DNA from: a virus
Reading direction: 5' to 3' (one strand)
IMG/VR virus record: IMGVR_UViG_3300046011_000969
Coordinates: 1-38,219 of that record
DNA: 38,219 bases
The notes beneath the pieces were generated by a model, which made no database searches, was not told the origin of the DNA, and saw only the letters and a program-made list of their open reading frames with translations. Positions 2,479 to 34,883 of the stretch are shown in pieces (position 1 is the first letter of the stretch; each line of letters starts with the position of its first letter). A program made the translations under genes and the position numbers.

Positions 2479-2784
2479 ATGCAAATAGATATGGCAATAA
2501 AAGAATATGAAGAGGGAGACAGATTTTTTACTTTCGAGATAGACAGAAGGCTTCAGTATGATTTTGAAGAGGAAGAAATAGCGAGGATTTGTTATTTATA
2601 TTTAAAAAACCAGATTGAACGGTTAGAAACATGGTTACATGAAGACGAAAAAAATGGAGCAACTGAGGATGCAGAAAGCACTGCGAAAGCCTTGAACGCG
2701 ACAATAACTGCAATTAACTTTATGACTGAATACGGAGTTTTAAATAAATTATTTGATAAACCATTAGGGGCTAAAGATGAGTAA
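2479..2784 (+). CDS. AT-rich acidic hypothetical protein between exonuclease and annealing protein
   Basis: A 101-residue acidic protein, mostly helical, with no recognised domain. It lies between the exonuclease and the annealing protein and overlaps the latter by 8 bases. Its codon use is clearly richer in A and T (many tta, aat, aaa, att) than its neighbours, resembling the broken GNAT gene at 4132, so recent acquisition is likely. The leader AGGGGCTAAATT precedes the ATG. A role in the recombination step is possible by position only. Confidence 0.65.
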   Translation: MQIDMAIKEYEEGDRFFTFEIDRRLQYDFEEEEIARICYLYLKNQIERLETWLHEDEKNGATEDAESTAKALNATITAINFMTEYGVLNKLFDKPLGAKDE

Positions 2785-3598
2785 CGTAATCAGTATGCCG
2801 AAGGGTGAAGCAGCAGTAATTGATCCAACCATTATTGAAAGTATTGTCACCAAAGGTGATTTGTCGGGGCTTAATCAGGTTCAGAAGGTGCAGTATTACA
2901 ACTATCGTTGCAAGCAGATTGGCCTAGACCCTAGCGCCAAACCGTTTGACCTGCTGAACCTATCAGGAAAGCAGGTGCTATATGCCAACGCGGGAGCCAC
3001 GCAACAACTCTGTAACCTCCACAAATTGTCAACTCAAATTACGAATAAGGAACGCGTGGATGATATTTACGTTGTCTCAGTCAGAGTTACCGGGGCTGAT
3101 GGACGCTCTAGCGAAAATCAAGGGGCTGTTAGCATCGGAAACCTCAAGGGAGATGCACTTGCTAACGCAGTGCTTAAATGCACTACCAAAGCAATACGCA
3201 GATCAGTGCTTGCTCATTGCGGACTTGGGATGCTCGATGAAACCGAAGTCGAAACAATCCCTAATGCCCATAAGGAAAATATCGTAATCCCGCAGGCAGA
3301 GCCAATCCCTACGGTTATCTCCGAGCCACAAGGTGATTGGGCTTTACTGCTACCCGGATCGGATGAGCCGTATTCCTACCATCAGAACGAGGATGACTAC
3401 TTAGCCGCCTTTGAGAAGATGGGCATCAAGATTCTCGATTCTAAGAAACTTGCAGCCGAAGAGAAGGTGCAGAAGATTAGCGACCTAATCTCTGCCAACG
3501 AAGCCACTCAGAGCCTTTTGAAGGGCGTACACGTAGAGATTGCAGACCGGATCACAGCGGGTTTACTCAAGGCAGCGAGTGACGCACTCCCAAAGTAA
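2777..3598 (+). CDS. Single-strand annealing protein, RecT/Redbeta-like
   Basis: A 273-residue protein likely to anneal complementary single-stranded DNA. Residues about 28-150 form the conserved part: QKVQYYNYRCKQIGLDP, then FDLLNLSGKQVLYANAGATQ, then a Lys/Arg-rich helix TKAIRRSVLAHCGLGMLDE that is characteristic of phage annealing proteins of the RecT/Redbeta superfamily. The C-terminal 110 residues are variable, as expected for a partner-binding tail. Its place just after a YqaJ exonuclease and before an SSB-tailed protein supports the call. Start chosen by the AGGGGCTAAAG leader before the ATG. The exact family (RecT, Erf, Rad52-like) cannot be fixed without profile search. Confidence 0.75.
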   Translation: MSNVISMPKGEAAVIDPTIIESIVTKGDLSGLNQVQKVQYYNYRCKQIGLDPSAKPFDLLNLSGKQVLYANAGATQQLCNLHKLSTQITNKERVDDIYVVSVRVTGADGRSSENQGAVSIGNLKGDALANAVLKCTTKAIRRSVLAHCGLGMLDETEVETIPNAHKENIVIPQAEPIPTVISEPQGDWALLLPGSDEPYSYHQNEDDYLAAFEKMGIKILDSKKLAAEEKVQKISDLISANEATQSLLKGVHVEIADRITAGLLKAASDALPK

Positions 3599-14148: not shown

Positions 14149-15561
14149 TTAGAATCCTAACGCGCGTCTGAGGCGCAGTGAACGGCGGTTCCATACCGCA
14201 CGTTGATCATCTTCATCGCCGCCAAATAACGGCTCTTTCTCTCCAAGGATGCCTTCGCCTGCCTCACCAGTAACGCGGGTAGAGATTGCAGGTGTTTCAC
14301 GGGCAGCAGTCGATTCGGGGGCTTCTCTAGCAATACGCAACTGCACTGTAGATAGATCAGAAGGCTGACGAATAACCTGTTGACTACCTGAAGGTGGAGT
14401 CATTTCCTGTTCGATTTGACGCAAGATTTGGTCTTCAGGTTCTACGCCACGCGCAGTAACGGTTTCCCTATCACGCGGCACAGTAAGCCCAGTGCCACCG
14501 CCCATACCCTCGGCAGTAGATACTTCTGGCACCCCTAGACCTTCACCGCCATACTCGCCAGCAAAAATCTCTTCAAAGTTAATATCTTCTGGTAACTCTT
14601 GTAATTCACCGCCAGCGCCTTGAGCGCCGCCCATCTCTTGTCTTGGCCTGCGAGTAGTGCCAGCGGTTAGGCTGAAATCTTGTGGCCCAATACCGGGAGC
14701 ATCAGCAGCAAACAACTGTTCACGCTCTGTCGTGCTTAGATCCTGTTCAATCGCACTCATCATGCGGTCAAACTGGTCTTCAGGCATACCAGCAATATCT
14801 TCTTGGGTCAGGTCTTGCTTAAACTTGCCGGGGCCAAAGCCAATGTCAACTTCGTCTGTCGTAAGTTTCTTTAACTCACGGTTCAGTTCGCCCAGTAGCG
14901 CACCTGTAACAGCGGACTCTGTATCGCCTGTGGCAGCGCCTCCAGCAGCAGCCCCTACTACCCGACCAATTGTTTCAGCGGTAGATGCTGACAAGCCACT
15001 TTGCCCACCTGTGCCAACTGGTTCTGCTCCTCTAATTGCTTCTGGTTCAACTGGTGTGCCGCCAAATCCTGTTAATCCTTCTTTGACTTCTGCGCCTACG
15101 CCACTGGCTATAGCGCTACCAAGGGCGGACTCAGCAATATCGCCACCCGTAATGGCTGCGGCTGTAGCGCCACCTGCGGCACCACCTACTGCGTTAGCCA
15201 AAGTGTTTTGAAGGCCAGCAGTTGATGCCATGCCTGCGGCTTTGCCTGCTATCTGAGGGGCAATGTAAGCAGCCAGCGCTGCCTTACCAATATCTTCAAG
15301 ATCACCGCCTTGGCTTGCAGTAATTGCGGCTGCTGTAATCGGTGCTGTAGCGGCTGTTATTGCTGCTGCTGACGCTCCAATAGCGGTTCCCGCTGCTGCA
15401 ACTGCATAGGGCGCGGCAATGGCAATAAGTAAAATCTCTGGGTTTTCAGCAACGGCTTTGGCTACAGTTTCAACAGTCTCTACTACGTCTTCAACCGCGT
15501 CACCTACCGCCTCGGCTACGTCTTCTACAACATCTACAACCGCCTCAACTACTTTACTCAT
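14149..15561 (-). CDS. Ala/Gly-rich membrane-active virion protein (470 aa)
   Basis: A 470-residue protein. Residues 3-38 form an acidic amphipathic repeat of Val-Val-Glu-Asp type; residues 43-80 and 95-155 are long Ala/Gly/Ile stretches compatible with membrane insertion. Residues 239-267 carry the block DIGFGPGKFKQDLTQEDIAG shared with the neighbour protein. The C-terminal 190 residues are acidic and likely disordered. It follows the acyl-type cassette with a TAATG overlap. A membrane-penetrating ejection protein is the best guess. Confidence 0.58.
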   Translation of the reverse strand: MSKVVEAVVDVVEDVAEAVGDAVEDVVETVETVAKAVAENPEILLIAIAAPYAVAAAGTAIGASAAAITAATAPITAAAITASQGGDLEDIGKAALAAYIAPQIAGKAAGMASTAGLQNTLANAVGGAAGGATAAAITGGDIAESALGSAIASGVGAEVKEGLTGFGGTPVEPEAIRGAEPVGTGGQSGLSASTAETIGRVVGAAAGGAATGDTESAVTGALLGELNRELKKLTTDEVDIGFGPGKFKQDLTQEDIAGMPEDQFDRMMSAIEQDLSTTEREQLFAADAPGIGPQDFSLTAGTTRRPRQEMGGAQGAGGELQELPEDINFEEIFAGEYGGEGLGVPEVSTAEGMGGGTGLTVPRDRETVTARGVEPEDQILRQIEQEMTPPSGSQQVIRQPSDLSTVQLRIAREAPESTAARETPAISTRVTGEAGEGILGEKEPLFGGDEDDQRAVWNRRSLRLRRALGF

Positions 15562-16013
15562 TATTTGTCCCCTCTTGCTGGCCCCGTTTTAACGGTTACA
15601 TAGAAACTCCCGTTGCCAGTTTCTTGTACTTGGTATCCCATGCCTTCGATTGGGGGGTTTTCCGAAATGAACCGGAAAATGGTTAGCAGTGACGGATCAG
15701 TAAACTCTGTAGCCATCGTATCGAAGCCCATCTTGTAACAGGCTTTGATAAACTCCACGCTGTTCGCAAGGAAGTTTCTAGCAGTGTCGGCGTTTAGCGC
15801 ACGAAAGAACCCCACCCCACGGTCTGCCTTGTGGATAATGAATAGAGTATTTCCTTGCCGAATGAACAATGTGTTCGGCATTTGAAGTTCTGCGTTTATC
15901 ATAGCGATATAACGCGGAGTCTCCATCGGATCTGGAGAAGACCAGTTTACAATGTCGAGGATTTCATCGACACTTATCTCTTGTTGCTGGCTATCAACTA
16001 ATTGCGCCATCAT
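15561..16013 (-). CDS. Putative GNAT-fold acyltransferase-like protein in ACP cassette
   Basis: A 150-residue protein coupled by ATGA overlap to the ketosynthase. The order of elements (helix with YIAMINAELQ, strand-turn-strand NTLFIRQGNTLFIIHKADRG, then helix ARNFLANSVEFIKACYKMGF, then helix SLLTIFRFISENPP and strand GMGYQVQET) resembles a small GNAT-like fold, but the acyl-CoA pyrophosphate loop is not convincing. If it is an acyltransferase, it could move an acyl chain from the phage ACP to a protein. The family is not recognised, so this is a structural guess. Two start codons lie in tandem (ATGATG). Confidence 0.5.
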   Translation of the reverse strand: MMAQLVDSQQQEISVDEILDIVNWSSPDPMETPRYIAMINAELQMPNTLFIRQGNTLFIIHKADRGVGFFRALNADTARNFLANSVEFIKACYKMGFDTMATEFTDPSLLTIFRFISENPPIEGMGYQVQETGNGSFYVTVKTGPARGDK

Positions 16014-17110
16014 GCCCCCATAGGCTCAAACACGGCGGCAGAATAGATGTTGCCCATGCCAGCCGCCAAACTTAACACTAGCCCCTTGGGTGCCTCTACA
16101 GGCTTTGACAAGAAAACGTAGTCATCCTCTGTACGATTGGGTATTTCAGGCACAAACCCATTCCTCATATTTTCCAACAATAATAGGGTTTCTAGCAAGC
16201 CCGAAGCGCCCATAGTATGACCTATTTTTGCTTTGTAACTGGTAGCGACAAAGTGGGTGTTTAGGTCTTTCAGGGCGTTCCTTTCGGCCTCATTGTTGGA
16301 CTTAGTACCCGTTCCATGACTCTTTACCACGGTTATGGCCTCCGGGTCTAGCCCCTGATCGACACATCCATTGATCGCCCGGATGAATCCCTCACCGCTA
16401 GGGTTCTGGCCTATGGCATTGGTACTCTTTTCTGAGGCATTGGCGCTATGACGCAGTGCAGCAATTGTGTTTTCTTGGGGAGTAGCCTCAAAAATTGCCA
16501 AAGCAGCACCCTGTGCGACATGGAAACCATAGTTTTTGCTGTCAAAAGCGCTTGGTAGCACCCCTTTTTCTTCCTCTTCTGGGGTCAAAATGGCCTTTGC
16601 CTCCCCAAAAAACTCCAAAACAGAGTTAGAAACGGCATCTTCCACGCTTAAAACGACTACCCGATCAAACTTCTCATAAAGCATTAGGTTTCTTACGTCC
16701 GTCATCACCTTGAGGCTAGAAGCGCAGGCAGAAGCGTCTGTCTGGATCAGGTCATGCACGCCCATCATCTGAGCCAGCCTTCCAGCGTAGACCTGAGTAA
16801 GCGTAAACGGTAGAAACTTGTAAACGTAGGACAACTGGGTGTCTTTAATCTTGCGAGGATTGATCCCGGCAAAGTGTTGGTTGCCCCCTGCTAGGATGAA
16901 CGCCTGCTTAGACTTAGGGTTTTCCCTAATATGGGAAATTATTTGGGGGGTGAGGAGCATTTCGACTAGGCGGTGTGGCGCGTAGACGAGTCCGGTGTCT
17001 TTTTTGGCGTATGTAGCGGGGAAAAAATGTACCTTTTGGGGGAAAATTAGGTCTTCCATGAGCGTAGTTTGCTCAGTACAGACCGTATTCCAGTGATTAA
17101 GGTAGATCAT
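16010..17110 (-). CDS. Beta-ketoacyl-ACP synthase (FabF/FabB-like thiolase fold)
   Basis: A 366-residue condensing enzyme. The nucleophile Cys129 lies in TDASACASSLKVM, the first His265 in KSHGTGTKSNNEAE, and Lys293 and His298 in YKAKIGHTMGASG. The spacing Cys-His 136 and His-His 33 is close to that of FabF (140 and 37), so the Cys-His-His decarboxylating condensation site seems intact. The protein is about 45 residues shorter than FabF. The gene is joined to the ACP gene before it and to the 150-residue gene after it by ATGA overlaps. It should extend an acyl chain on the phage ACP by two carbons, or act as chain-length or initiation factor; substrate is unknown. Confidence 0.9.
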   Translation of the reverse strand: MIYLNHWNTVCTEQTTLMEDLIFPQKVHFFPATYAKKDTGLVYAPHRLVEMLLTPQIISHIRENPKSKQAFILAGGNQHFAGINPRKIKDTQLSYVYKFLPFTLTQVYAGRLAQMMGVHDLIQTDASACASSLKVMTDVRNLMLYEKFDRVVVLSVEDAVSNSVLEFFGEAKAILTPEEEEKGVLPSAFDSKNYGFHVAQGAALAIFEATPQENTIAALRHSANASEKSTNAIGQNPSGEGFIRAINGCVDQGLDPEAITVVKSHGTGTKSNNEAERNALKDLNTHFVATSYKAKIGHTMGASGLLETLLLLENMRNGFVPEIPNRTEDDYVFLSKPVEAPKGLVLSLAAGMGNIYSAAVFEPMGA

Positions 17111-17388
17111 TTGATCGACTCAATCGCCGCCTCTAGGCTTTCTGGCTCTTTAGTCTTGTGCTGGTCAATAAATGCCTTCAATTGGGTGCAATTTGTGACC
17201 TGCATGGTCTTGCCAACCTCTTCTGGCACCCCGTATAGGTCACACATATACAAACCCACCATGAGCATATCTAGGCTGTCAAAGCCTAGTTCGTTAAATG
17301 GTGAATCCCAATCCGGTTTTTCAAGTGAGTCTTGGTGCATAGGCTTGGCTATCTTGCCTACCTCATGCACCAGCGCTAGGAAATCCAT
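17107..17388 (-). CDS. Acyl carrier protein
   Basis: A 93-residue acidic helical protein with the phosphopantetheine attachment motif ELGFDSLDMLMVGL; Ser38 is the expected modified residue. Helix order and length fit a stand-alone ACP, with a C-terminal extension of about 15 residues. The host holo-ACP synthase would have to load it, since no such enzyme is seen here. The leader AAGGGGCTAAAT precedes the ATG. Its stop overlaps the ketosynthase start, giving a dedicated ACP-ketosynthase pair within the virion operon. Confidence 0.88.
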   Translation of the reverse strand: MDFLALVHEVGKIAKPMHQDSLEKPDWDSPFNELGFDSLDMLMVGLYMCDLYGVPEEVGKTMQVTNCTQLKAFIDQHKTKEPESLEAAIESIK

Positions 17389-25338: not shown

Positions 25339-25977
25339 TTAGTACCCCGACTGATAAACAGACGGTAGGCGGCGAGTGAATGTGCTATTTAGCGCACCGA
25401 GGATTTGCTTCGTGTATTCTTGCTTGAAGAGTTCCGATTCACCGTAACTTTGCTCTTGGTACTTGGCTTTGCTTGCCGCGTAGTATGCGACTGCTTCGTA
25501 GTACGGGCTTGGGATTTCTGTGTCCGGTTGCCCACCAGTGACAAGAGGGCTTGGAAGAACGACTGTATCCAATTCAATTTCATATGCTTGATCCGGTTTT
25601 GGCCCTATGTAAATAGTTTTAGCGCCATATATCGAGAAGCCAATTGGCCTTCCGTTGTAGTTTTGCCAAAAACGCAATTGGGCATTGAAATCCGTCCAAG
25701 CCATGTAGTACATAGGCCAGCGACTATCGCCCCAATAAAGGTTGATATTAAGAATATCAATTGTATTGTTGCCTTGCGTAAGGTCAGCGTAGTCGATGGT
25801 TTCATCGCCTACAGTCAACGTGTACGTTTGCAATACCCTACGACACCCGGAGTCTTGTACCGTGTGTCCTCTGGCATCGTTAATGTAATCTGTTAGTTCT
25901 TGATCAGTCCAGAAATTACCATTAACGTCATGCAGCAATCGCCGCGTTTCGGTGATGTATTCGTTTAGAGTTGGCAT
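25339..25977 (-). CDS. Head-tail adaptor protein (tubular-A-like)
   Basis: A 212-residue protein with the adaptor pattern LNEYITETRRLLHD...WTDQELTDYINDA at the N-terminus and a C-terminal helix PSPYYEAVAYYAASKAKYQE. This matches the head-completion/adaptor family (T7 gp11, P22 gp4-like) of short-tailed phages, which binds below the portal ring. It lies between capsid-associated genes and the tail hub, as expected. Confidence 0.78.
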   Translation of the reverse strand: MPTLNEYITETRRLLHDVNGNFWTDQELTDYINDARGHTVQDSGCRRVLQTYTLTVGDETIDYADLTQGNNTIDILNINLYWGDSRWPMYYMAWTDFNAQLRFWQNYNGRPIGFSIYGAKTIYIGPKPDQAYEIELDTVVLPSPLVTGGQPDTEIPSPYYEAVAYYAASKAKYQEQSYGESELFKQEYTKQILGALNSTFTRRLPSVYQSGY

Positions 25978-27097: not shown

Positions 27098-28099
27098 TTA
27101 CAGTGTCAGAGAGTTGTAGCCAGTGACCTTCGTCATCGACTTAGGTTTGGTGCTTACCATTTCGGCAATCATCAGAACCGCGCCAACGTAACCAATCTGG
27201 AAGTTGGGCAGAGTCGATTCAAAGCCAGTGAACGCAAACGAAGCCTGCTCATGGATGTACATGGACAGATAGTTTGTGTTCAGCAGGTACAGAGTACCTT
27301 CCGGGCAATAAGGATCAGGATAGATTGGAACGCCAGCAACCATCAGGGCGCGGAAAGCAGCCTGTGGGCCATTGGCATCGGCATCAAAACCGGAACCCGG
27401 AGTAATCATGTACTGCTCTTGGCCTACGTAGTCCTGAGCCAGAAGCGTCCAAGTACCAAAGCCGCAAACGCCAAAAGTAGGTACTTCAGCGCAGTTCTTA
27501 ACGGTACCGGAGATGTACTGGAGTACGTTCTGACGGGTCGGGTTAACCGAACCAGCAGCGTATTCCTTGGAAGCCCACCATGAGTATGCGCTACGGCTGA
27601 TGTTGCCGTATGTACCCGATGAGTCAACAGCGATTGGCAAGCCAGTAAACTGTTGGGTGTCGCTGGTGTTGTTGTACAGGGACGTAGCCATTGCATCCAT
27701 CATCACGTTGGTCGCGTCATTCATGCGAGCCTCGATGAGGGGGATGATTGCGTAGTCTTGCTGTACTGCACCTTCCATACCGAGGAACGGTACGGGAGAG
27801 ACAAGTAACTTCAAGTTGAACTCAGCGTTGTACGCGCCTTGCTGAACGCTAGGCTGTGCAAACGAGCCAGAATAGTCTGACCACTGAGCGTTAACGAACT
27901 GCGAACCCTGAACTGGAACCGTCACCGAGGACACACCGCCAGAAGCGGTTTGACTATTGGCGATCAGTGCAGCCATGAGGGGCGTAGAGTTGTAAATCTG
28001 CACGACCATCTTGGGAATAAACGCACGGCGCGTTACATACGTAAGTTCCGTGTATTGTTGACTCCCAGAGGCCGGTATAATTCCTCCGCCAATAGGCAT
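27098..28099 (-). CDS. Major capsid protein (HK97 fold)
   Basis: A 333-residue protein fitting the HK97-fold capsid family in size and pattern: N-terminal arm with QQYTELTYVTRRAFIPKMVV, an E-loop-like region (VSSVTVPVQGSQFVNAQWSD), a spine helix (LIEARMNDATNVMMDAMATSL) and a P-domain C-terminal strand set ending KSMTKVTGYNSLTL. It follows the scaffold gene, as expected, with a good AGGAGA leader. The unusual number of Trp/Tyr in the middle is typical of podophage capsids. Confidence 0.88.
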   Translation of the reverse strand: MPIGGGIIPASGSQQYTELTYVTRRAFIPKMVVQIYNSTPLMAALIANSQTASGGVSSVTVPVQGSQFVNAQWSDYSGSFAQPSVQQGAYNAEFNLKLLVSPVPFLGMEGAVQQDYAIIPLIEARMNDATNVMMDAMATSLYNNTSDTQQFTGLPIAVDSSGTYGNISRSAYSWWASKEYAAGSVNPTRQNVLQYISGTVKNCAEVPTFGVCGFGTWTLLAQDYVGQEQYMITPGSGFDADANGPQAAFRALMVAGVPIYPDPYCPEGTLYLLNTNYLSMYIHEQASFAFTGFESTLPNFQIGYVGAVLMIAEMVSTKPKSMTKVTGYNSLTL

Positions 28100-29559: not shown

Positions 29560-31203
29560 TTAGGCAGGGCCGCCATCTATCTCTCCCGGTTGAGGTGCGA
29601 TTGGCTCTTGGCCTTGAGGAATCTCAGGGCTTTGAGGCGTTTGTACAGTTTGAGCCTGTTTTTTCAGGTCTTCAAGTAGTTGTTGCTTCATGGGCGGATC
29701 AATCATTTCGATTAAGCGCTCTTTGCTGATAGTTCCGGCCTGATACAGGCTGAAAGCCATCTCACGCTGGTCTTCCATGAAGATTGGACTGTTGCTGTGC
29801 GCGTCCACTTTCACTGTGAAATCATCGGTAAACTGCTTGGCTATAAACTTATTACCCTTTTCATCAACGTAAACGGTATCGTCATATACCATCATCATCT
29901 TCAGATAGAGGGTTGCCAGTTTCTCCAAGGCGCTTTCAATGACCAAAGCACGTTTTTTAGCGCGTGAAGAGCCGAGTCGAGCCAGTTGGGAGGCGTGTCC
30001 AGCACTACGAACACCACTTTCACCCCGGCCTTGCAGAACGGAAACGATACCTGAAGCCTCCGCAAACATGGCATCAATCTCAGCAATCTCACGAAATATG
30101 TCATTTGGTATGTCTGGAGCAAACTGTTCGACCTTGCCATTGGGCATATCGTTAGCCAATAGGCCACCAGCACGGCGCAATGCAAAGGTTTTCTCATCCA
30201 ATAGGCCACCAAAACCCTGTAATACCGTGGGTGGGTCTACCTGTTTGTCTAGCAATTGCATGATCTGAGTGGTGCGCTTATTCCTCATGTCTTGCAAGAA
30301 GATCAAGCGTTGCACTTCTGACTGCCCCCAGTAGTAGTCGTATTGCGGATTGGGAGAAATCTGAACAAAAGGTACTTCGCCTTCCAAGAACATCATCTTG
30401 GACGCACGATCAAAGATTACTACGTTAGGGTCAGCAATCGTGACGCATAGGTAGTCATCAATCTCATCATCGTAAATCCAAAGTTCGTGCATCATCACCG
30501 TGTCTTCGGCAATCATTGGCACGTAGCGGTTTACGCCAGTGAGGTTTAAGTTAATGTTTCCGTAAATGGTAGGATTGGTTGCGGACGTAATCACACGATC
30601 CATACCGGAAGCATTGTCAGACGTTTCTTGCTGAGAGAAGGTGATGCGGCGCACCAATTCATCTCTCTTGGGATGCGACCACAGCCGTGAGAACAATTCG
30701 CTCTTGGTCATGTAGTAGCGTTGAATCATTGCTTCTTGACGATCAGTGTACGGAACGTCTTCGCGCAATACGCCAATGGCAGCGGGTTCCACCATGTACG
30801 GATGGATGCCGTTACGCCAAACTGGTTTTACAAAGGTGGTGTTGTAGCAAAATGACCAGTTCAATGCTTGACCAAAGACCTGATCTGCATTGCTATTAAG
30901 CCAATAATCGTAGAGCGCTTTAGTTAAAACAGGCACCATGCGCTGATACTCTTCAGACTCACTTGCTCCAATGTTGATTGAAAAGCGTGTAGAATCTGCT
31001 GCATACATAAACGCAGATAGTTGGTCTATGTGCGGGAAGATTTTGTTATATTGCGCTGGCGCTTCCTCTGGCCCTGCACCAAACAGGTAGTAGGATCGCA
31101 AGCCTTCTGATTCTGTGCGTCTGCTTTCCATAGACACCATGCACTTTTGCATAATGTCCATGTAGAACATCTCGCGTTCTAATGGGTCGGTAGGTATTCT
31201 CAT
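29560..31203 (-). CDS. Portal protein
   Basis: A 547-residue protein matching the portal proteins of short-tailed phages: N-terminal helices (MFYMDIMQKCMVSMESRRTE), central stem and wing strands (YDYYWGQSEVQRLIFLQDMR, VDPPTVLQGFGGLLDEKTFA), a long clip/crown helix (SGIVSVLQGRGESGVRSAGH, LESALEKLATLYLK-like) and a Pro/Gln-rich C-terminus. It forms the dodecameric DNA gate. It overlaps the zinc-ribbon gene as ATGA and follows terminase genes by two small genes. Confidence 0.87.
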   Translation of the reverse strand: MRIPTDPLEREMFYMDIMQKCMVSMESRRTESEGLRSYYLFGAGPEEAPAQYNKIFPHIDQLSAFMYAADSTRFSINIGASESEEYQRMVPVLTKALYDYWLNSNADQVFGQALNWSFCYNTTFVKPVWRNGIHPYMVEPAAIGVLREDVPYTDRQEAMIQRYYMTKSELFSRLWSHPKRDELVRRITFSQQETSDNASGMDRVITSATNPTIYGNINLNLTGVNRYVPMIAEDTVMMHELWIYDDEIDDYLCVTIADPNVVIFDRASKMMFLEGEVPFVQISPNPQYDYYWGQSEVQRLIFLQDMRNKRTTQIMQLLDKQVDPPTVLQGFGGLLDEKTFALRRAGGLLANDMPNGKVEQFAPDIPNDIFREIAEIDAMFAEASGIVSVLQGRGESGVRSAGHASQLARLGSSRAKKRALVIESALEKLATLYLKMMMVYDDTVYVDEKGNKFIAKQFTDDFTVKVDAHSNSPIFMEDQREMAFSLYQAGTISKERLIEMIDPPMKQQLLEDLKKQAQTVQTPQSPEIPQGQEPIAPQPGEIDGGPA

Positions 31204-32015: not shown

Positions 32016-33776
32016 CTAAAAGCCAAGTGCCTTGAGGTAGTTATTGACCTGTTTCCTGACTTGCTCTCCTTCAGGATTTGTGGCGGCTGTGTCTTGGGCT
32101 TCTTTTTTGACACGGGTAAGTCTTTGGGCAATGAGTCTGGGCTGTACTTGCTCTGCATAGGCTGCACAGGCCAGCGCTGAAGCAATAACGCGATCATCTT
32201 TTCCCCTTCCATACGCTGCAATCGTCCCTTGGTCACGTACTATACCTTTCATCTCGTCTAATAAATCTATGCCATACACGTTACACATACCACGCTCAAA
32301 GTAATCCTTGAAGTAATTGAGCATCCGTTCTTTGCTGGAGTGAGTGGTCACCCACCCAATACTGTTTGACACCCCGCCAAAGTTGTCATTACGCCGCCAT
32401 AGGTAGTGCTGCATATTGGCTAGTACGTTGTATAGGCTGGCAGCATCAGAGCCTCCCATAGCGGTTGCCTGCCGTTTAAGGTTACGCATTTCGTTAATGA
32501 CTGCCTGCCCCGGCCCGTTGACCTCAAGGTTTAAGGTTGAGTTCTTATATGCGCCTGCCAAGTAGCAAATAATCCAAGCAAACTGGTAGGTATTGAGTTC
32601 GGATGAGCAAAATTCAGCCACTTGATCTAGCCCATCGGCATAGCAGCGGTAAACCTGAATACAAAAGCGGTCTGCCCAATCAGATGAACCGTAGGCAGGG
32701 TCAGCACCGATCACGTAATAGGCTGAGTCAATGGGCTCTTCCCAAATTGTCATCGTTGCCAGCCGTGCGGTAGACTGTAGTAACTCAGTATCCTGAAAGT
32801 TTGCCCCCATAGAAAAACGGTAATAGTTAGCGTCTATGGATTTTGCTAATTTCATAGCATCAGTACATCTGCTGGTAGAAAAGAACGATGAGCCTGTCAT
32901 TACAAAGGCGTAGTCCTCTGTGGGAGGAAACTCTTGGTACATCAAGCCTTCGTCTTTTAGCCCTTCGTGTAATTTCCAGCGCCACCAAGCCATCTGGCGG
33001 CTATTGATCTCGTAGTTGTATATCTTTTTAATCTCCCGCGTCCATTCTTTCTCTTCTGCGGAGAGTTTTCCGTCCCAATAGACTCGGTATACGTCTGAAT
33101 CTGGTTTGGCAGCGTAGAGTTGATTGCGCCACCAGCCGCAGAATATGGCTCTTTGTGTACGCGCTCTCTTGGCTGTTACCCACATATCATGGAACATATT
33201 GAACCCACGGGCGGTGGATTCGAACATATAGTATCTAAGGGGGTTGGTTTCTGCGAGGGAGGCGAGAAGAGAGGCGAGTCCTTCTTCGTCACCCCAAGAA
33301 GAAGTCTCAGTGCCGTGCAAGAAAGTGATACCTTTACCGCGTCCCAGTGTTCCCTTTGACCTTGTGCCAGCGACTTGGTAGAACATTCTGGATCGGTTTT
33401 TGAGAACCATCTGGTTTCGGTTGTGGGACATAAGGGGTATCTTGTACTCCTTGGGTAGTCCGTCCATGTACATCTGTAGGGTGCTTCTAAACTGCTCACG
33501 GTTTTCCTCCGTATCAGTAGTTAGAGTGCCTTGCATACCGGGGTTTAGGAAGTGCCAGTACAAGTCCATAGCAAGGCTGATGGTGGTGATACCTAACTGC
33601 CTGCCTTTCAGCACAATGAAGAAATGAATATCGTCTTCTAAACCCTTGGCTACCTCATCAATCACATAGGTCTGAGTACCTAGTAGGGTTTCCCCCAAGG
33701 TAATCATGCCTTGCTCTTTAGATTCAATCTTTAGGTTGCGGCAAAACTGGTAAAACTTCTTGGTGTCAAACTTCAA
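32016..33776 (-). CDS. terL: Terminase large subunit
   Basis: A roughly 586-residue packaging motor. The ATPase part has a variant Walker A (LKGRQLGITT, about residue 57) and Walker B with the catalytic acidic residues (FLHGTETSSWGDEE, about 150-164). The nuclease part has an RNase-H fold with the first Asp in GADPAYGSSDW (about 359), a middle Glu (LNLEVNGPG, about 420) and a last Asp in GKDDRVIASALA (about 543). It cuts and pumps concatemeric DNA into the head. Start: TTG at 33776, with AGGAT about 7 bases before; the frame also allows TTG at 33782. The start overlaps the methyltransferase gene. Confidence 0.92.
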   Translation of the reverse strand: MKFDTKKFYQFCRNLKIESKEQGMITLGETLLGTQTYVIDEVAKGLEDDIHFFIVLKGRQLGITTISLAMDLYWHFLNPGMQGTLTTDTEENREQFRSTLQMYMDGLPKEYKIPLMSHNRNQMVLKNRSRMFYQVAGTRSKGTLGRGKGITFLHGTETSSWGDEEGLASLLASLAETNPLRYYMFESTARGFNMFHDMWVTAKRARTQRAIFCGWWRNQLYAAKPDSDVYRVYWDGKLSAEEKEWTREIKKIYNYEINSRQMAWWRWKLHEGLKDEGLMYQEFPPTEDYAFVMTGSSFFSTSRCTDAMKLAKSIDANYYRFSMGANFQDTELLQSTARLATMTIWEEPIDSAYYVIGADPAYGSSDWADRFCIQVYRCYADGLDQVAEFCSSELNTYQFAWIICYLAGAYKNSTLNLEVNGPGQAVINEMRNLKRQATAMGGSDAASLYNVLANMQHYLWRRNDNFGGVSNSIGWVTTHSSKERMLNYFKDYFERGMCNVYGIDLLDEMKGIVRDQGTIAAYGRGKDDRVIASALACAAYAEQVQPRLIAQRLTRVKKEAQDTAATNPEGEQVRKQVNNYLKALGF

Positions 33777-34320
33777 GATCAATCCTATCTGGGTAAAGGT
33801 GGGACAGGTCTTTGTCTTTAATGTAGATTGCTACCATGTCGTGCCATATCGGAGCGCTATCAACAAAGGCTTCTAGCAAGATAGTGTTATATCCATTGTG
33901 GTTAGCCCAGTTCATAAGCGCCATGCTTGCGTCTAGCCTAAACCGCCAGCAGTCAACAGGAAAGGCGTGATGAGGGCCACCAGAGGGTGCATTGATGTAG
34001 ATCAAGCCATCAGGCTTAGTAATCCTGACTATTTCCAAAAAGGTTAGCCAAAAGAACTCAGAGTGTTCTAGGCATGAAGAAGACACCACAATGTCTACAG
34101 ACTCAGACTCAAATGGCAAGACGTATGGCTCTTTAAGCACCACATCCACGTTTGCTGCCTCTTTAAAATCTACGCCAACGTACTTAAACCGTTCAGGGGT
34201 ATAAGACCTAAGACTACCGTTTACGTCTTGGCTACCAATGTCAACTACCACACCACCGTCTTTATGCTTGGCATAGGTTTCAAAAAACCGTTTGCCATTT
34301 TTAATGGCTGATTCGTGCAT
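33766..34320 (-). CDS. SAM-dependent methyltransferase (Methyltransf_11-like)
   Basis: A 184-residue class I methyltransferase. Motif I is VVVDIGSQDVNGSL (about residues 24-37), motif II YVGVDFKEAANVDVV, and motif IV-like DIVVSSSCLEHSEFFW. A downstream motif INAPSGGPHHAFPVDCWRF looks like a substrate loop. It starts with TAATG overlap on the second methyltransferase gene and ends inside the terminase gene. Sugar or surface-polymer methylation is likelier than DNA methylation, since no DNA target motif (NPPY type) is seen. Confidence 0.8.
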   Translation of the reverse strand: MHESAIKNGKRFFETYAKHKDGGVVVDIGSQDVNGSLRSYTPERFKYVGVDFKEAANVDVVLKEPYVLPFESESVDIVVSSSCLEHSEFFWLTFLEIVRITKPDGLIYINAPSGGPHHAFPVDCWRFRLDASMALMNWANHNGYNTILLEAFVDSAPIWHDMVAIYIKDKDLSHLYPDRIDLEV

Positions 34321-34883
34321 TAGGCTCTCAACAGTATGGTTAGCCCGTGGCAGTTACGGAAGCGTTCATGCACTTGCCACTTAGGGTGTTCCTTTTCAAA
34401 CTCCTCGATGGCAGGCCAAAGTCCACGGTCAGGTGAGCCATCATCAACCTCGTTCTTAAACCCCCAAGGGGCATCGGTGTCGTGCATGATGATGTACTTC
34501 TTAGCCTTCTCATGGTGGAGCGATAGTTCTAACTTCAACTGCCCATAGGTATGGAGCGTATCGATAAAGAGTAGGTCACAGGTAGGTATATCAATGTGTC
34601 GGGAGTCCGCCTGCTTAAACTCGATGCTGATGTCAGATAGTTTGCACAGTTCTTCTAACTTGGGGTTTTGGCAGGCGTTAATATCCAAGTAGAGCATCCA
34701 CTTGCCTTTGTAGGGGCTGGCTTCTAGTCCAGCAGCCAAGGCGTAGGCAGAGCAGCCACCACGTACTCCCATCTCAACCACGGAAGAACACTCTTGTGCG
34801 TAGTCTCTAAGGGTGGTGAAGTGTTCCCACATATCTGTACACATGGAAGCGATTTGAGGGAGAACCTTATTTAAGTTTGACAA
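34320..34883 (-). CDS. SAM-dependent methyltransferase (Methyltransf_24-like), TTG start
   Basis: A 187-residue class I methyltransferase-like protein. Motif I is SVVEMGVRGGCSAYALAAGL (about residues 34-53), then LYLDINACQNP and the motif LLFIDTLHTYGQLKLEL, which place it with sugar O-methyltransferases and cephalosporin-hydroxylase-like enzymes. A later HDTDAPWGF is consistent with a metal-binding Asp/His. TTG at 34883 fits AGGAG about 10 bases upstream. Paired with the other methyltransferase it may decorate a sugar made by the phage glycosyltransferases. Confidence 0.75.
   Translation of the reverse strand: MSNLNKVLPQIASMCTDMWEHFTTLRDYAQECSSVVEMGVRGGCSAYALAAGLEASPYKGKWMLYLDINACQNPKLEELCKLSDISIEFKQADSRHIDIPTCDLLFIDTLHTYGQLKLELSLHHEKAKKYIIMHDTDAPWGFKNEVDDGSPDRGLWPAIEEFEKEHPKWQVHERFRNCHGLTILLRA

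Follow-up and report, generated by a model that had tools for sequence, protein, structure and literature searches.

A conserved phage cassette encoding an acyl carrier protein, a ketosynthase and a predicted GNAT-fold protein: a candidate system for acylation of an ejection-like virion protein

The subject of this report is a three-gene cassette in the virus record IMGVR_UViG_3300046011_000969, whose entire 38,219 bases we refer to as the window. The late genes of the window lie on the minus strand, and in their midst are found the genes for an acyl carrier protein (ACP)-like protein, a beta-ketoacyl synthase (KS) and a third protein of 150 residues, followed directly by the gene for a 470-residue ejection-like protein (Table 1). 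The ACP and KS genes, and likewise the KS and third genes, overlap by 4 nt (ATGA), the third gene and its successor by 1 nt. An earlier note on this DNA had described three open reading frames joined by ATGA overlaps, a serine, Ser38, in a DSL motif of the ACP, and Cys129, His265, Lys293 and His298 in the condensing enzyme; the frames are indeed present on the minus strand and every residue number is correct, the ACP motif reading DSLD. The note had also placed the cassette among virion genes, as is the case, with terminase, portal, capsid, adaptor and tail fibres upstream and ejection-like proteins downstream; further proteins of the latter kind are encoded beyond the 470-residue one in the same series.

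In IMG/VR the KS has at least 569 relatives and the third protein at least 350, and among the loci that we read 166 distinct ones show the order ACP-KS-third protein. A further 21 have the ACP with no third protein alongside, and all others are interrupted by contig ends. Because the three genes recur in one order in so many distinct loci, the trio is not a product of chance, and the expectation of the earlier note that related phages would keep it was upheld by this neighbourhood survey. Among 50,697 GenBank phages a close KS relative was found only in MW202545.1 (ctpbd312, Manatee Spring phage; 58% identical), which belongs to the same group as the window phage and carries the complete trio in unchanged order; it differs in that the KS is the sole annotated gene of the three, the ACP and the third gene being labelled 'hypothetical'. 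A scan of GTDB passed two loci, namely a phage-like trio contig in a Balneolaceae metagenome-assembled genome and one distant cellular KS. The former, a 37.6-kb contig (L046, JAGYJQ010000016.1), either gives a weak hint as to a host or is a phage contig that was binned there accidentally.

Judged from its Pfam, NCBIfam and PDB profile matches, the second protein is certainly a member of the beta-ketoacyl synthase superfamily, and its identity as a condensing enzyme, already assumed from the sequence, follows from a profile search in which both Pfam KS domains exceeded the cut-off of 20.8 (PF02801, 58.2 bits, 1.1e-15; PF00109, 37.6 bits, 2.5e-9). With FabF/FabB-type enzymes it shares the superfamily, the Cys-His-Lys-His active site and an alignable C-terminal two thirds, but it differs from them in several respects. 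Its N-terminus is shortened, with 366 residues in total compared to about 410; the gate loop near the C-terminus reads AAGMGN in all phage KS that cover the region, whereas, of the 23 KS from cells or other sources that served for comparison, 22 have FGFGG[HT]N or a near variant and one, L044, has YAFGG; and its score is far under the cut-off of every NCBIfam subfamily, the FabF model matching at 9e-27 and 93.7 bits, with 493.75 required. The four catalytic residues are nonetheless invariant in all 132 distinct aligned KS sequences. When 30 phage KS were placed in a tree together with 23 others, the phage proteins grouped as a single clade (100/100) whose branch measures 3.46 changes per column, and we thus regard them as an old, phage-held family; a recent chance insertion of host FabF, the origin that would have undermined the earlier proposal, is thereby rejected. 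Two further sequences deserve mention. In the KS of a lone fragment (L313:5720-6829) the catalytic Cys is replaced by Arg (DASARASS), which may be a sequencing error or the mark of an inactive copy, and a viral contig (L044:7674-8825) encodes a different, FabF-like KS of 383 residues near desaturase-like membrane proteins, a context unrelated to that of the phage KS described here.

The assignment of the first protein as an ACP was supported by its family profile, its predicted fold and the invariance of Ser38, but not by its single sequence, which stayed below the Pfam cut-off (18.1 bits, E=0.003 against PF00550, cut-off 20.8). PF00550 matches 5 of 28 members of the family at E up to 0.01, and the family profile retrieves mostly ACPs from the PDB (best E 3e-4). 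The AlphaFold2 (AF2) model has a predicted local distance difference test score (pLDDT) of 85.7 and helices at residues 3-14, 38-52, 56-59, 67-77 and 85-92; their order is that of ACPs, with Ser38 beginning helix 2 and with the helix at 85-92 as a C-terminal addition. Its top structural matches are carrier proteins (67-79 residues aligned, highest Z 7.8), and all 119 sequences of the family have D37, S38, D40 and K60.

Sequence searches with the 150-residue protein gave no Pfam or PHROGs match and no meaningful PDB match. Its AF2 model (pLDDT 92.6) runs helix-helix-three strands-helix-strand-helix-two strands, which is the GNAT order; its Foldseek matches are GNATs (best RimI 5isv, 2.9e-4), and VIA-align returned Z 11.3 for HP0935 (8iyo) and 11.2 for RimI (2cnm) over 124-125 residues at 3.1-3.2 A. 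N-terminal acetyltransferases (RimI, Ard1, NAA80) are among the best structural matches. A GNAT fold is therefore the predicted one, and this acyltransferase fold, by itself, speaks for the link to acyl transfer that had been supposed for the protein. RtxC-type structures are not among the matches listed for the model, which carries no weight either way. In place of the Q/RxxGxG/A motif with which GNATs bind the pyrophosphate of coenzyme A (CoA), the beta4-alpha3 loop of the protein reads NADTARNF, its N, A and D being present in 119 of 121 family rows and a glycine in only one. Homology to T7 gp13 (PF11090; hhalign probability 0.4%, hmmsearch negative) and to SIO1 gp26.2 (no signal in sequence comparison) was considered and rejected.

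What ties the GNAT-fold protein to a virion component is the N-terminus of its neighbour. The 470-residue protein belongs to no Pfam family and has a weak PHROG match (0.042), and its position beside tail and internal genes suggests a role in ejection. At 157 distinct loci the GNAT gene is likewise followed by one for a large ejection-like protein with an N-terminus of the type M-[SG]-A-V-[VA], which then continues as a long, Val-rich and mostly acidic amphipathic helix. Of these 157 proteins, 141 have Ser or Gly as residue 2, compared to 15% of 868 other genes that are translationally coupled at these loci (Fisher 1e-76, a p-value that is overstated since the rows are related); Ala occupies residue 3 in 122 and Val residue 4 in 138. 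Lysines are scarce in this segment: 109 of the 157 proteins have none within residues 2-30, and the best Lys column in the first 160 residues reaches 55%. A fixed acceptor Lys of the HlyC type near the N-terminus is hence unlikely, and, with no conserved Lys there, the N-terminal amine would be the likelier site if the segment is acylated.

The same link emerges from syntenic relatives, which were found through the conserved 126-residue gene upstream of the cassette. Among 63 such loci with enough sequence, 35 have the trio, 10 the GNAT only and 18 neither. After deduplication, all GNAT-bearing loci except L341, whose start is doubtful, have the helix N-terminus, with Ser or Gly at residue 2 in 30 of 35, whereas the 13 distinct proteins from GNAT-less loci begin quite differently and none has Ser or Gly there (Fisher 4e-8, for loci that are not phylogenetically independent). 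The GNAT-only phages differ in further ways. Several otherwise near-fixed GNAT positions are altered in them, and a cationic N-terminus (+4 to +6; MSWLKK..., MSIFHKIGRGVKK..., MGRLSKAWK...) is found in 4 of their 8 distinct ejection-like proteins as against 0 of 27 trio proteins (p 0.001). Positive charge might thus replace a lipid in these proteins, a comparison that draws on two or three lineages. By eye, the KS-less relatives show no deletion scar, their gaps of 137-187 bp holding no ACP or KS remnant. In three GNAT-only loci (L379:3012-3148, L396:6355-6509 and L399:6355-6509) the gap before the GNAT contains a TTGACA-type promoter-like box, as if the GNAT had gained its own promoter where ACP-KS is absent.

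The two halves of the cassette can also be separated within one genome. In a second KS clade (L278, L283, L291, L302, L308, L312, L313 and others), which is nested within the other phage KS in the tree, ACP-KS stands in a module of the replication type: a helicase-like gene precedes it, small early-type genes follow, and no GNAT is encoded alongside. The late-operon position emphasized in the earlier note therefore does not hold for this clade. The sole long contig of the clade, G200 (the L291 contig, 59,077 bases), has a single KS (33.6-34.7 kb, minus strand) and a single GNAT (17.7-18.2 kb, plus strand). The latter belongs to the virion operon, at a distance of 15 kb from ACP-KS, and directly precedes an ejection-like gene whose product starts with MGAVAEVV, the same type as at trio loci. 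Apparently, ACP-KS was relocated, the GNAT kept its place, and neither was lost. The persistence of one KS and one GNAT at distant sites implies that the parts are kept together without linkage, a co-retention that is seen in the single genome G200, the other second-clade members searched being fragments of less than 20 kb; for that reason the fact that no GNAT was seen in them carries little weight.

Table 1. Positions of the cassette and of neighbouring late genes in the window
Feature	Positions	Strand	Remarks
Terminase	32016-33782	minus	late operon
SU10-type portal	29560-31203	minus	late operon
Major capsid	27098-28099	minus	late operon
SU10-type adaptor	25339-25977	minus	late operon
Tail-fibre-like proteins	as far as 18152	minus	between adaptor and 126-residue gene
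Conserved gene, 126 residues	17399..17779	minus	upstream of ACP; marker for syntenic relatives with or without the cassette
ACP-like, 93 residues	17107..17388	minus	Ser38 in DSLD, additional C-terminal helix
Beta-ketoacyl synthase (KS), 366 residues	16010..17110	minus	Cys129, His265, Lys293, His298
GNAT-fold protein (predicted), 150 residues, candidate acyltransferase	15561..16013	minus	AF2 model, structural matches
Ejection-like (internal virion) protein, 470 residues, proposed acyl acceptor	14149..15561	minus	directly after GNAT gene
N-terminal 40 residues of the ejection-like protein	15442..15561	minus	M-S-K-V-V-E-A-V..., Val-rich amphipathic helix

Within the cassette, a promoter and terminator scan gave no more matches than were obtained in shuffles. 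Elsewhere in the window, two adjoining genes past the terminase (33766-34883) are methyltransferase-like, the second of them weakly so, and a YqaJ-like recombinase gene (1565-2467) accompanies a weak Rad52-like gene (2777-3598), likely as a phage recombination pair.

On these grounds we tentatively propose, at what we estimate to be somewhat below an even chance, that the trio is a dedicated acyl-ACP supply that feeds acylation of the ejection-like protein. According to this proposal, a host phosphopantetheinyl transferase (PPTase) would charge the phage ACP to holo-ACP, the phage KS would set the acyl chain on its dedicated carrier, with host reductases probably completing the cycle, and the GNAT-fold protein, devoid of the CoA loop, would move the chain from acyl-ACP to the product of the next gene. 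The likeliest acceptor would be the alpha-amine of Ser2 or Gly2 once the initiator Met is gone, and a fatty chain at the tip of the amphipathic helix could hold the ejection-like protein at a membrane during assembly or DNA entry. The more specific notion that ACP, condensing enzyme and GNAT-fold transferase jointly attach a fatty chain to the N-terminal Ser/Gly is possible, but we hold it with greater reserve than the general proposal. The earlier suggestion of an acyl product that would be tied to a virion protein is thus partly supported by the conserved trio ahead of an ejection-like gene with a Ser/Gly N-terminus.

Known enzymes offer parallels to parts of this proposal. RtxC-type enzymes such as ApxIC and HlyC are described in a review as GNAT folds without CoA-binding elements whose donor is acyl-ACP (PMC8339906), and both the RtxC/HlyC (TAAT) enzymes and CdiC resemble the phage protein in combining such a fold with dedication to one adjoining protein (PMC8339906, PMC8510554). 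By analogy, the phage GNAT would fit the use of an acyl-ACP donor through its fold and its missing loop. These enzymes, however, acylate internal lysines by means of a His/Asp dyad, whereas the proposed phage acceptor has no conserved Lys in its first 160 residues, and no sequence match between the phage GNAT and RtxC/HlyC or CdiC was found. With respect to the acceptor, a parallel is offered by the RimI/NAT acetyltransferases and eukaryotic N-myristoyltransferase, GNAT folds that act on a free N-terminal Ser, Gly or Ala after Met removal, N-myristoyltransferase acting on Gly (PMC8339906); these use acyl-CoA, in contrast to the phage GNAT, which lacks the CoA loop and is encoded together with an ACP.

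Several observations weigh against the proposal. No general base could be picked out in the GNAT-fold protein, and His61, although common in the family, is altered in some KS-less relatives. Neither a PPTase nor a reductase or dehydratase was found among the window proteins scanned, nor were further fatty-acid synthesis (FAS) genes seen there, so that the host would need to provide them. On the available stretch, 21 distinct ACP-KS loci, mostly fragments, have no GNAT; conversely, the 10 of 63 syntenic relatives with a GNAT but no ACP-KS would require host acyl-ACP or acyl-CoA, unless the GNAT does something else. The N-terminal Ser/Gly could be retained for other reasons. Finally, a reverse search with the helix N-terminus yielded 60 loci, of which 42 have the trio, 4 KS and GNAT, 8 GNAT only, whereas 6 lack this GNAT, the last representing about four phage types (L456, L467, L468-471 and L478); the helix N-terminus is hence not strictly dependent on this GNAT. 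In some of these six another small gene, to which neither Pfam nor PHROGs gave an identity, lies one or two places upstream; GNAT-looking candidates among them (L467, L468, L478) received no confirmation from either database. At L456:1320-2999 an ADP-ribosyltransferase (ART-PolyVal) gene directly precedes the helix-type ejection-like gene, in the usual place of the GNAT.

The foremost alternative, a serious one that we nevertheless consider doubtful, is that ACP-KS forms an auxiliary module altering host fatty-acid or membrane synthesis and that the neighbouring GNAT is a separate morphogenesis factor. It would account for the clade with ACP-KS in a replication-type module and for GNATs without ACP-KS, and it is in keeping with the Cobavirus (SIO1) GNAT, a small protein directly ahead of internal virion proteins that has been likened to T7 gp13 (PMC6775973), which is similarly placed. 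The phage GNAT, however, has no detectable sequence similarity to T7 gp13 or SIO1 gp26.2, and no ACP or KS neighbours these in the maps consulted. Adjacency of the trio in 166 distinct loci together with co-retention in G200 likewise argues against two unrelated functions, and a highly derived, dedicated KS with its own ACP exceeds what boosting of host FAS would need.

Alternatively, the GNAT fold could serve as a non-catalytic chaperone or scaffold of the ejection-like protein, with ACP (and KS) as protein partners in the manner of LYR-type complexes. The missing classical catalytic or CoA-binding motif, the strict association of the GNAT with the gene that follows it and the filing of T7 gp13 by Pfam as a probable scaffold are all compatible with such a role, but ApxIC-type enzymes are active without CoA elements (PMC8339906). 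Moreover, a structural role would have no need for KS catalytic residues that are invariant in 132 sequences, and we regard this explanation as unlikely.

Least probable is the production of a small acylated molecule, an N-acyl amino acid or a homoserine-lactone-like signal, for which the GNAT fold adjoining a dedicated ACP and KS and the existence of GNAT-fold synthases that use acyl-ACP, such as LuxI, can be adduced, but against which the late virion operon, the fixed tie to the next structural gene and the N-terminus of its product favor a protein target.

With regard to novelty, the earlier note had allowed that ACP or KS genes might already be annotated in other phages, and so they are: besides the KS of MW202545.1, fabG-acpP-fabF has been described from prophages of Rhodobacteraceae (PMC8224337), and pelagimyophages are reported to carry fabF (PMC7029224). 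The Rhodobacteraceae set resembles the present one in combining an ACP and a KS in a phage context; its description sets it apart, with ordinary fab gene names including fabG and no GNAT or virion link reported. Among open-licence papers we found neither a phage ketosynthase with a role in acyl transfer nor an acylated phage virion protein. A claim of novelty would thus concern the proposed link between acyl chains and the virion, but not the presence of KS and ACP genes in phages as such.

Taken together, we argue that this cassette, which is common in IMG/VR phage contigs and conserved at its catalytic residues, may bear on a step that is only partly understood in short-tailed phages, namely the passage of internal proteins and DNA through the cell envelope. 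Since the acylation idea specifies a single set of enzymes and a single acceptor protein, it is testable with four genes in a laboratory strain. Acylation of a virion protein, if true, would be of an altogether new kind among phages, and if N-terminal lipidation is true, it would constitute a phage counterpart of N-myristoylation with machinery supplied by the phage itself. Even if just the lipid-metabolism explanation is true, there would still be a deep, phage-only ketosynthase family with an altered gate loop.

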